A stretch of 64,000 nt of DNA from Spinacia oleracea (Eukaryota > Streptophyta > Magnoliopsida > Caryophyllales > Amaranthaceae), in assembly GCF_020520425.1 (NCBI RefSeq), contig NC_079492.1:145173861-145237860 (forward strand), in the 5' to 3' direction. Each line of letters opens with the position of its first letter. The stretch's first letter is position 1. Below, in pieces: positions 20,881 to 23,234 of the stretch. Both the position numbers and the translations under genes were made by a program. The notes beneath the pieces were generated by a model. That model was given only the letters and a program-made list of their open reading frames with translations. It searched no databases and had not been told where the DNA came from.

Positions 20881-22037
20881 AGACAGAGATGAGAAGATTG
20901 TGATAAATATGTTTTATCTCCGATGCTTTTTGTTTGCTCTCATATATATGCTTATATTGCACTATAATTTTATACTAGTACTTAAATTGAGGATTTGACC
21001 CAAATTAATAGTTAGACAGGGGACCAAACTAAATAAGGCTTTAAGCTCAGGTTAATAGTTTAGATAGGAAGCTCAAACTAAATAACATGCACAAATTACT
21101 TATTGAGATGGAAAACGGGTTTTGCTGTTTGGGTAGAAATCGGGCGAGATCATTTGGGTCGGTCAGATAACTTTCGGGTATATAGTCAATAACTTATTAT
21201 GGAAAATTGAATATTTTAGACATCAAGTCATCTTTCTCTTCAAGTGCGATTATTTTTTATTCGAGTCAACTAGATTCAATTGTAGTTTGTTATAGACTTT
21301 TATTAGTCTTATAGTGAGTGCGAGTATATACAAATTAAATAAATTACTCAAAAGATTAGTTACTTATTGTTGATTAACCAGTTTTAGTTTTTAAACTAGT
21401 TATATAATCTGCACTAATAAAATGAAATTTACATGTCATTTTAAACATAATTTCAAGATACATCATACATGTAACAACCCGGGTACTTTCCCTATAAACT
21501 TTAAGTCTCAAGTGGTTTGTGTCCATATGAACATATATGACTCATATTGACACCCATTAATTTGGATTGGTACTGAGAGTCTGAGACTGGTAGACTATTG
21601 GTATACTAATAAATTGCTAAGAAAAACCAATATAAATTATTTGTGTTTTTAGTACTGACATATTCTATGTTGGTATTATAAATGGTTGTATTTGGGTCAC
21701 TTGAAGTTTAATATTCCTTCGTATTGCCCTGCCTAATAACTACTCCGTCCTTTAACCCCTCGCACCGTTTTCCTTTTCGGGTCGTCCCTTAATACTTGCA
21801 CCGTTTCTATAAATGGAATTTTTTACTAATATTAAATTATTTCTCACACTTACCCGCTAACCCACTCCATACAAAAAAAACATTTAAAAATTCACACCTC
21901 CACTGAGCGATTTCCTTCAATATTGCTTAAAGATCCAATAATTCCCTAAATACGTTACTTTTTAAGTTATTTCCCACCATACCGTCCACGTAAGCAAGGG
22001 AGAAAAAGAAATATTTTTTTTTTCCGGTTCAGCATTG

Positions 22038-22165
22038 AACCGCCATATGAGATAGCGGTTTCGTTTAAAAGCAAACCGCCATCTCAGATGGCGGTTCAAT
22101 GTTATAAACCGCTATCTCAGATAGCGGTTTGCATTAAAACATAACCGCTATCTCAGATGGCGGTT
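22038..22165. repeat. four tandem 23-bp palindromes
   Basis: Positions 22038-22060, 22074-22096, 22107-22129 and 22143-22165. The consensus is two 11-base arms, AACCGCTATCT and AGATAGCGGTT, around a single C. Copies differ mainly at the sixth to eighth arm bases; copy 2 has CC..GG where copy 3 has CT..AG, so pairing is kept. Start-to-start spacing is 33-36 bp. Confidence 0.95.
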
Positions 22166-22247
22166 TACTTACTTGTAAATTATTTTTAACATGAATTACA
22201 GTTTAAATAGAAATATAATATAGAAGTAACCTCTTGTGACATCAATT

Positions 22248-22320
22248 GTGTCTGTAGCTCAGTGGTTAGAGTGGGTTATTTCCATGTAGGAGGTCGTGGG
22301 TTCAAATCCTAACTAATGTG
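22248..22320 (+). pseudogene. tRNA-like sequence 1 (degenerate)
   Basis: GTCTGTAGCTCAGTGGTTAG gives an A-box and D-arm, and GGTTCAAATCC a B-box, 73 nt long. The anticodon loop would read TTTCCAT (position 34-36 TCC), and the acceptor and anticodon stems are poorly paired. Clearly a sister of the next sequence. Confidence 0.65.
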
Positions 22321-22388
22321 TTTATTTCTTTTTAACCATTTATTAATATTAATTATAAACATTTCCAATTTTACCTTATCAAACATTA

Positions 22389-22461
22389 GTGTCTGTAGCT
22401 CAGTGGATAGAGCATTTGTTTCCTAAGAAGAAGGTCGTGGGTTCGACCCCTAGCTAATGCG
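22389..22461 (+). tRNA. tRNA-Arg(CCT)-like sequence 2, probably degenerate
   Basis: Close to plant tRNA-Arg(CCT): TAGCTCAGTGGATAGAGC gives a perfect D stem, the anticodon loop is TTCCTAA (anticodon CCT) and GGTTCGACCCC is a canonical B-box/T-loop. However, the acceptor stem has two mismatches and two wobble pairs, the anticodon stem has one mismatch and the T stem one. A T-run right after it (from 22463) would be a strong pol III terminator. It may be transcribed even if it is not a working tRNA. Confidence 0.5.
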
Positions 22462-22505
22462 GTTTTTTTTTTTTTTTTACCATTTATAAATAGTACGTGA
22501 TTATA

Positions 22506-22561
22506 AACCGCTATCTCAGATAGCGGTTTACTTAAGTCAACCGCTACCTGAGATAGCGGTT
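22506..22561. repeat. two more 23-bp palindromes
   Basis: 22506-22528 is identical to the perfect copy at 22107. 22539-22561 differs near its centre. Start-to-start spacing is 33 bp, as in the left group. Confidence 0.95.
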
Positions 22562-23234
22562 TAGTGTCGCTTAGTTAAAAAAAAAAAAGACCGGTTTTAA
22601 TGCTGACGTGGACGGTATGGTGGGAATTAAGTTAAAAAGTGGCGCATTTTGGGAATTTGACGTTCTTTAAACAATATTGAAGGAAATCGCTCCACCTCCA
22701 CTACCCTTACATATTTCACACTAACTATATTAAAAAAAAATACTCCACTATCAACTATCACCCATTAAATTATTAAGTCATTTCAAGTGTCTTAAACTCC
22801 GCACCAGTCAATCCGGTGCGAGTATTAAGGGGAGGAGAGAGTAATTGAATACTCCATCTGTCCTTAAAGATTGTACTTATTTCCATTTCGATCCGTCCCT
22901 TTGAGTTTGCCCCATACCATTTATAATATGTGGTCCTTGCATGTTTCCTGTCACATTTAATATTTAAATTAGCTTAAAGACAAAAGTACCAACCCAAGTG
23001 ATTTCATTTTGCATTATATCCTAGGGTGAGTTATCCCTCAAACTCATCTCCAATCTTCAGACCCTGCCCCATCAAGTTTTCACTAATTGTTTCATTATTC
23101 GATTCACGCAAGATTCTCCCTATTTTACACATTATCACAAGACTTGCCTCATACTCAACTAAACTCCTAAAAAAGGATAATTAAATAGGATAAAGTATGA
23201 TGAACTGACATATTTTTATCAGAAATTTTGTGTA

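Follow-up and report, generated by a model that had tools for sequence, protein, structure and literature searches.

A palindrome-rich Mutator-type MITE of spinach that probably captured a tandem pair of tRNA-Arg(CCT) genes

The locus analyzed here raises the question of how a small DNA transposon came to carry a tandem pair of tRNA-like sequences between palindromes, and whether these sequences may make it a mobile RNA polymerase III (pol III) unit. It lies in the window, i.e. the whole stretch of 64,000 nucleotides of Spinacia oleracea DNA that was analyzed (C6:145173861-145237860), and its relatives were searched for in the genome (894,210,420 bases on 242 contigs, six of them large). The features of the locus, in window positions, are the following:

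21743..22843 (21743-21904 and 22703-22843), no strand: Stowaway-like repeat interrupted by the element, from the joined-flank search
21895..21904, no strand: left target-site duplication CACCTCCACT, perfect over 10 bp
21905..22692, + strand: complete non-autonomous MULE-type element of 788 bp, from its ends, its duplication, the genome copies and the ORF list
21905..21996, + strand: left terminal inverted repeat, 92 bp long and with 86% complementarity to the right arm (self-alignment of the arms)
22038..22165, no strand: four 23-bp palindromes at 22038, 22074, 22107 and 22143, giving two long hairpins when folded
22240..22504, + strand: putative captured block, approximate and with an uncertain left limit, made of two tRNA-Arg-derived segments with spacers, homologous to the host array L114
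22248..22320, + strand: tRNA-like segment 1, degenerate, with box A intact and 1 mismatch in box B
22389..22461, + strand: tRNA-like segment 2, from tRNA-Arg(CCT), with boxes A and B intact and the fold lost in the window copy
22463..22478, + strand: run of 16 T directly 3' of segment 2, with the sequence of a pol III terminator
22506..22561, no strand: two 23-bp palindromes at 22506 and 22539, giving one long hairpin when folded
22601..22692, - strand: right terminal inverted repeat of 92 nt, 86% complementary to the left arm
22693..22702, no strand: right target-site duplication CACCTCCACT, perfect over 10 bp

MULEs are characterized by long terminal inverted repeats and by target-site duplications of 8-11 bp, mostly 9 bp. 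The preliminary description of a complete, non-autonomous MULE-type element with inverted ends and a perfect 10-bp duplication was confirmed by the long arms, by the presence of the same ten bases on both sides and by the mostly 9-bp duplications of the other copies. Its statement that no transposase is carried also held, as no ORF of at least 50 aa overlapped the 788-bp element. Short, non-coding, present in many copies and with defined ends, the element has the attributes of a MITE. Once joined without the element, its flanks matched all 40 scored places (from 3157 candidates) at 82-89% and through the junction, so that the element was indeed inserted, as had been claimed, into an abundant Stowaway-like repeat. 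Folded as RNA, the palindromes, six copies of a 23-bp unit AACCGC...GCGGTT arranged 4+2, formed long hairpins (z = -16.7 for the group of four and -11.0 for the group of two). Matches to Rfam miRNA families within the window element were below the cut-offs of these families and reflect the hairpins.

At the genome level, the search with the whole element returned 749 first-look candidates, and the 40 places scored, including the window copy, were all near full-length (93-100% identity) and spread over the six large contigs. The copies have ends, order and cargo in common and differ in their target duplications, which is what the preliminary description had set as establishing a family. Perfect target duplications of 8-12 bp, mostly 9 bp, flanked 36 of these copies and were absent in four (with strict boundaries, 9 bp in 29 copies, 10 bp in 5, 8 bp in 1 and 11 bp in 1). 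The terminal 21-mer occurred 888 times genome-wide (≤2 mismatches), the tRNA 5' pattern 258 times (≤3 mismatches) and the spacer marker of the tRNA-bearing form at 153 places (≤3 mismatches), while each of the reversed-pattern controls gave 0 matches. When the left flank of one copy was paired with the right flank of another, a repeat of at least 8 bp was found in 4 of 1951 combinations. Given these zero-match controls and the flank-swap control, the pattern of the window element is not due to chance.

The window copy differed by only 0.26% from L009, with unrelated flanks, and L037 differed from L041 by 0.13%, with different duplications. Such near-identical copies at unrelated sites indicate that the tRNA-bearing form moved recently. 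L009 was counted among the four copies without a duplication because its own 9-bp repeat, GAGGAAAGA, is found four bases outside the aligned left end. Two copies, L018 (C1:112647554-112647738) and L044 (C5:99365746-99366003), showed an extra partial family end beside the complete element; neighboring insertions have been proposed as a capture route of Pack-TYPE elements (PMC8903248). Three others (L061, L086 and L106) were long elements of 2.4-3.4 kb, with tRNA cargo and extra inserted DNA.

The cargo had been described as a tandem tRNA-Arg(CCT)-like pair. Both segments are present, with starts 141 bp apart and 76% identity over 91 nt, but segment 1 is no longer recognized as a tRNA. In the window, segment 2 scored 30.2 bits against Rfam RF00005 (cut-off 29) and segment 1 scored 21.0 bits, under the cut-off. 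ARAGORN reported segment 2 alone in the window element, as "tRNA-Pyl (cta)"; the alignment with intact relatives identified its loop as that of tRNA-Arg(CCT). Over the 40 sampled copies, an Arg(CCT) tRNA was called in 26, corresponding to segment 2, and any tRNA in 34, the other eight calls being Asn, Pyl, Arg(TCT) or undetermined. Transposon cargo is therefore the likely identity of many tRNA-Arg genes predicted in this genome. Compared with shuffled sequences, folding gave z = 0.52 for segment 2 and z = -0.73 for segment 1 of the window, against z = -2.79 for an intact sequence, and window segment 2 lacked the cloverleaf and intact acceptor stem of a functional nuclear tRNA gene. Judged from their sequences, the captured genes would now do little as tRNAs.

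Copies with the same ends and no tRNA had been named beforehand as the finding that would make the tRNAs an accident of one copy. Such copies do exist, but the 153 places with the spacer marker show that the tRNA pair is no one-copy accident. Their frequency was determined in 60 stretches, namely L049-L104, which are the loci on chromosome 1 that match the terminal 21-mer exactly and do not belong to the first set, and four stretches from chromosome 2. The partner end (≤4 errors) was present in 45 of them, including 41 on chromosome 1, and the 15 stretches without it, at least three of which contain a tRNA segment (L054, L078 and L097), were left out of the classification. Among the 41 complete chromosome-1 elements, tRNA segments with boxes A and B were present in 14 and absent in 27 (two of which, L103 and L104, duplicate each other). 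Good target duplications accompanied all 14 tRNA-bearing and 23 of the 27 tRNA-less elements of this chromosome-1 sample, and five more chromosome-1 copies, from the first set, bear tRNA segments. ARAGORN detected no tRNA at the loci of the 27 tRNA-less elements. Three elements (L058, L066 and L075) possessed a short, unrelated middle at the position of the tRNA block. In addition, two near-identical tRNA-less pairs were located about 10-13 kb apart (L107 and L108, C2:25162927 and C2:25173225; L103 and L104, C1:135237022 and C1:135249723); as the members of each pair share their target duplication, they probably arose by local segmental duplication and not by two insertions each.

All 27 tRNA-less elements contained the six-base palindrome motif (AACCGC or GCGGTT), from 1 to 14 times. 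The palindromes are thus an older component of the MITE, outside the tRNA cargo. The earlier picture of a tRNA pair framed by palindromes stands for the arrangement, with four on one side and two on the other, but not for the palindromes as part of the cargo: their position around the tRNAs follows from that of the captured block, in the interior of a palindromic MITE.

Concerning the source of the cargo, the plant tRNA-Arg(CCT) pattern was near-intact at 17 places in the genome. Seven were within whole or broken elements (L097, L115, L118, L119, L120, L144 and L145), and ten had no surrounding element sequence in the DNA read around them (201 bp for L109-L113 and 1101-1181 bp for the others). 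The host tRNA-Arg(CCT) occurred in two versions differing by a compensatory acceptor-stem pair, with C4:G69 in five of the element-free sequences (L109-L113) and T4:A69 in the other five (two in L114, plus L116, L117 and L143); the element segments have T4:A69. L114 is a tandem array in which two intact tRNA-Arg(CCT) genes, repeated with a period of 138 bp, are accompanied by a 3' fragment of a third. Within the 1181 bp read, it showed no inverted ends, no palindromes and no element sequence beyond cons 336-588. Its spacers aligned to the middle spacer of the element and to the sequence 3' of segment 2 better than in 1000 of 1000 simple shuffles. The tRNA pair and its spacers thus match a host array, as captured host gene sequence does in Pack-MULEs. 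For the upstream flank, an equally good score was obtained in 127 of 1000 shuffles, although its last bases CATCAATT agree with the element. As this match is no better than chance, L114 is considered a donor-type locus and not a proven donor; it does not account for some 70 bp on the left side of the tRNAs, and the left limit of the captured block is approximate.

These alignments bear on the alternative that the tRNA part is a tRNA-derived SINE inserted into the MITE, a proposal to which the two pol III boxes and the A/T-rich context would be suited. The block, however, consists of two tandem tRNA bodies, both full-length, and its spacers are homologous to the host tRNA array, and no SINE body, tail or target duplication of its own was seen at its edges in the alignment inspected by eye, so that a SINE origin is extremely improbable.

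The state of the cargo differed between elements. Segment 2 scored 67.0 bits in L097 and 63.6 bits in L118, comparable to the host genes (65.9-67.1 bits), and 34.7-43.5 bits in members of the amplified lineage (L044, L010 and L021). L118 is a complete element, with a 10-bp duplication containing one mismatch as judged by eye. In L118, L097 and L115, segment 1 was disturbed where segment 2 was near-intact, suggesting that segment 1 is the first to fail. The host-like scores of segment 2 in L097, L115 and L118 (63.6-67.0 bits) would also be compatible with an element that disperses working tRNA-Arg(CCT) genes for its host. This reading is nevertheless very improbable, as the acceptor stem and the fold are decayed in the amplified lineage, the rate of change of both segments is 2-3 times that of the remaining element, and other such genes are available to the host outside elements (L109-L114, L116, L117 and L143).

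The history that we consider highly likely is that a palindrome-rich Mutator-type MITE captured a tRNA-Arg(CCT) pair and was amplified with transposase provided in trans, its cargo being mainly a passenger. A palindromic MITE with the same ends exists without tRNAs. Its middle would have been replaced by a piece of a host tandem tRNA-Arg(CCT) array, an event to which the array, its spacers and the near-intact elements point, and the captured tRNA genes would have been intact on arrival. The ends and the 9-bp duplications suggest a MULE transposase, acting in trans, as the agent that spread the 0.79-kb form. From the comparison between copies, segment 1 would have decayed first, and segment 2 would have remained near-intact in a part of the elements while decaying in the most-amplified lineage, which includes the window copy. 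The cargo would be mainly a passenger that retained most of its pol III promoter and terminator, and pol III may still read it.

A search for MULE domains genome-wide (150 scored of 1960 candidates) listed 31 matches on C1. No autonomous partner was found near the family ends, the nearest of these 31 C1 matches being 59.6 kb from the closest of the 78 C1 ends listed. Among the elements that have inserts or lack a partner end, some of the long ORFs gave the impression, by eye, of retroelement parts.

The pol III signals of the cargo were inspected in 81 copies, of which 40 were chosen by overall similarity, 20 by the spacer marker, and 21 partly for their boxes or near-intact tRNA. As at most one mismatch was allowed per box, the resulting unit counts are conditioned on near-intact boxes. 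Two units were found in 62 copies, one in 18 and none in 1. Among the 142 units, box A was perfect in 132 and box B in 108, an upstream CAA was present in 137, and a downstream run of at least 4 T likewise in 137. Moreover, segment 2 was followed by a run of at least 8 T in all 40 copies of the first set. The sequence components of a pol III unit, namely box A, box B and a T-run terminator, are therefore all present, and the promoter and terminator signals of the cargo mostly persist. Five copies (L095, L050, L092, L093 and L138) had a single tRNA segment or two segments nearer together; L095 lacks cons 413-509 and the segment starts of L138 are 93 bp apart. Such shortened blocks are as expected from recombination between tandem segments.

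In the aligned copies, the tRNA bodies (22248-22320 and 22389-22461) changed more than the rest of the element. With pairs of copies selected from one half of the non-tRNA columns and compared over the other half (median of 27 pairs, 60 splits), the change ratio was 2.7 (2.1-3.3 over the 60 splits), and 2.1 (1.6-2.7) when stratified by sequence context. A first pairwise ratio of about 3.3 was biased, as the same columns had served to choose the pairs, and was replaced by this held-out estimate. The excess was concentrated at CG (0.086 in the tRNA bodies vs 0.014 in the rest) and CHG (0.070 vs 0.025), with a difference also at A/T (0.013 vs 0.005) and none at CHH (0.021 vs 0.022). No CG/CHG excess was seen among strict singletons, which may result from saturation. 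Ratios in the 20-bp flanks of the tRNA bodies were 1.15, 0.80 and 1.80, so that the edges of the excess are not perfectly sharp. As the excess is found at CG and CHG and not at CHH, it was rejected as proof of transcription, methylation being an equally good candidate. Candidate sources include a methylation centered on the tRNA bodies, inefficient repair where TFIIIC is bound, and transcription-associated mutagenesis, which Thornlow and others reportedly described at tRNA genes in 2018. Gene conversion from host genes or from the sister segment was not retained as an explanation, since 42 of 306 reconstructed changes were towards those states and 264 were not (in an alignment with some misaligned rows).

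Selection on the captured promoter was inspected on a tree of 73 copies built without the tRNA columns. A mobile pol III unit, as suggested in the preliminary description, would use the captured promoter to its own benefit, through transcription, open chromatin or TFIIIC binding, possibly as an aid to transposition or to escape from silencing; it would need the boxes and could dispense with the tRNA fold, and may be likened to the internal promoters that serve SINEs or Cassandra. The boxes, the CAA and the T-runs kept in most of the 142 units are consistent with it, 60 of the 81 copies having been chosen independently of the boxes, as is the raised mutation over the tRNA bodies, which transcription or bound factors could cause. 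So are the few box A changes on the internal branches of this tree (2 internal and 24 terminal, compared to 66 and 123 in the rest of the tRNA; p = 0.003; within-context permutation p = 0.002). Box B showed 10 internal and 24 terminal changes (p = 0.69), and both boxes together 12 and 48 (p = 0.037).

The signal for box A, however, weakened on a simpler-model tree of the same columns (4 internal and 22 terminal; p = 0.048). Over 40 bootstrap trees, the median odds ratio was 0.42 for box A (0.13-1.01), with p < 0.05 in only 16, and the odds ratio for box B was 0.38, with p < 0.05 in 25. Without a tree, the comparison of common and rare variants was not significant (odds ratios of 0.5-0.6; p = 0.25-0.59), and between close pairs the boxes changed at a rate close to that of the rest (ratio of 0.91). 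With selection on boxes A and B favored on one tree, weaker on others and not seen in tree-free tests, it is not claimed here, and the conditioning of the unit counts on near-intact boxes also weighs against a mobile pol III unit, which is in our view unlikely. A DNA transposon family keeping its own pol III promoter, with the boxes selected in source copies and the tRNA fold discarded, is likewise a doubtful reading; if true, this family would be a class II counterpart of SINEs, Cassandra and Helenus. The persistence of boxes A and B in many copies would not be required by pure decay and may count against a passenger cargo, with unsettled statistics. As elements with and without tRNAs share their ends and coexist in one genome, the family offers a natural test of the benefit of an internal pol III promoter to a DNA transposon.

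Among known systems, MULE-type MITEs with a palindromic or foldback interior resemble the window family in being short, non-coding and present in many copies, with long inverted ends and 9-bp duplications; the tRNA-bearing subfamily differs from them in that its middle is replaced by tRNA genes. In tRNA-derived SINEs, a tRNA head is followed by an unrelated body and a simple 3' tail without inverted ends, and boxes A and B come from a tRNA whose fold is lost. The tRNA origin of the boxes and the lost fold are shared by the spinach elements, in contrast to their inverted ends, 9-bp duplications and tandem tRNA bodies with array spacers, and no SINE body or tail was seen in them.

Pack-TYPE elements are described as containing fragments captured from coding genes (PMC8903248), and the word "tRNA" does not occur in the main text of that article. 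Like Pack-MULE and Pack-TYPE elements, the window family consists of non-autonomous elements with terminal inverted repeats (TIRs) and captured host gene sequence, multiplied by transposition. Unlike the coding-gene fragments described for them, its cargo is a tandem tRNA pair with internal promoters and terminators. As the recognized cargo consists of tRNA genes, and not of the protein-coding sequence of a strict Pack-MULE, the family is termed Pack-MULE-like. Among the titles and abstract openings listed from the open literature, no case of tRNA cargo in a DNA transposon was found. Dada DNA transposons, which are also linked to multicopy tRNA genes, insert into tRNA or snRNA genes according to PMC8869645, the reverse of the relation in the window element, where the tRNA genes are inside. 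Helenus TRIMs are reported as LTR elements with a tRNA-like sequence (PMC10886601) and Cassandra as an LTR element with a 5S rRNA-like sequence (PMC10853983). The spinach family resembles both as a non-SINE mobile element in which a pol III promoter accompanies the sequence of a small-RNA gene; in contrast to these LTR retrotransposons, described with that sequence in their LTRs, it has TIRs and bears a tandem tRNA pair in its interior. The family suggests that a DNA transposon of the TIR type is able to take up complete tRNA genes and to multiply them, which in plants would be a way of relocating tRNA genes and of inflating the number of pseudogenes.
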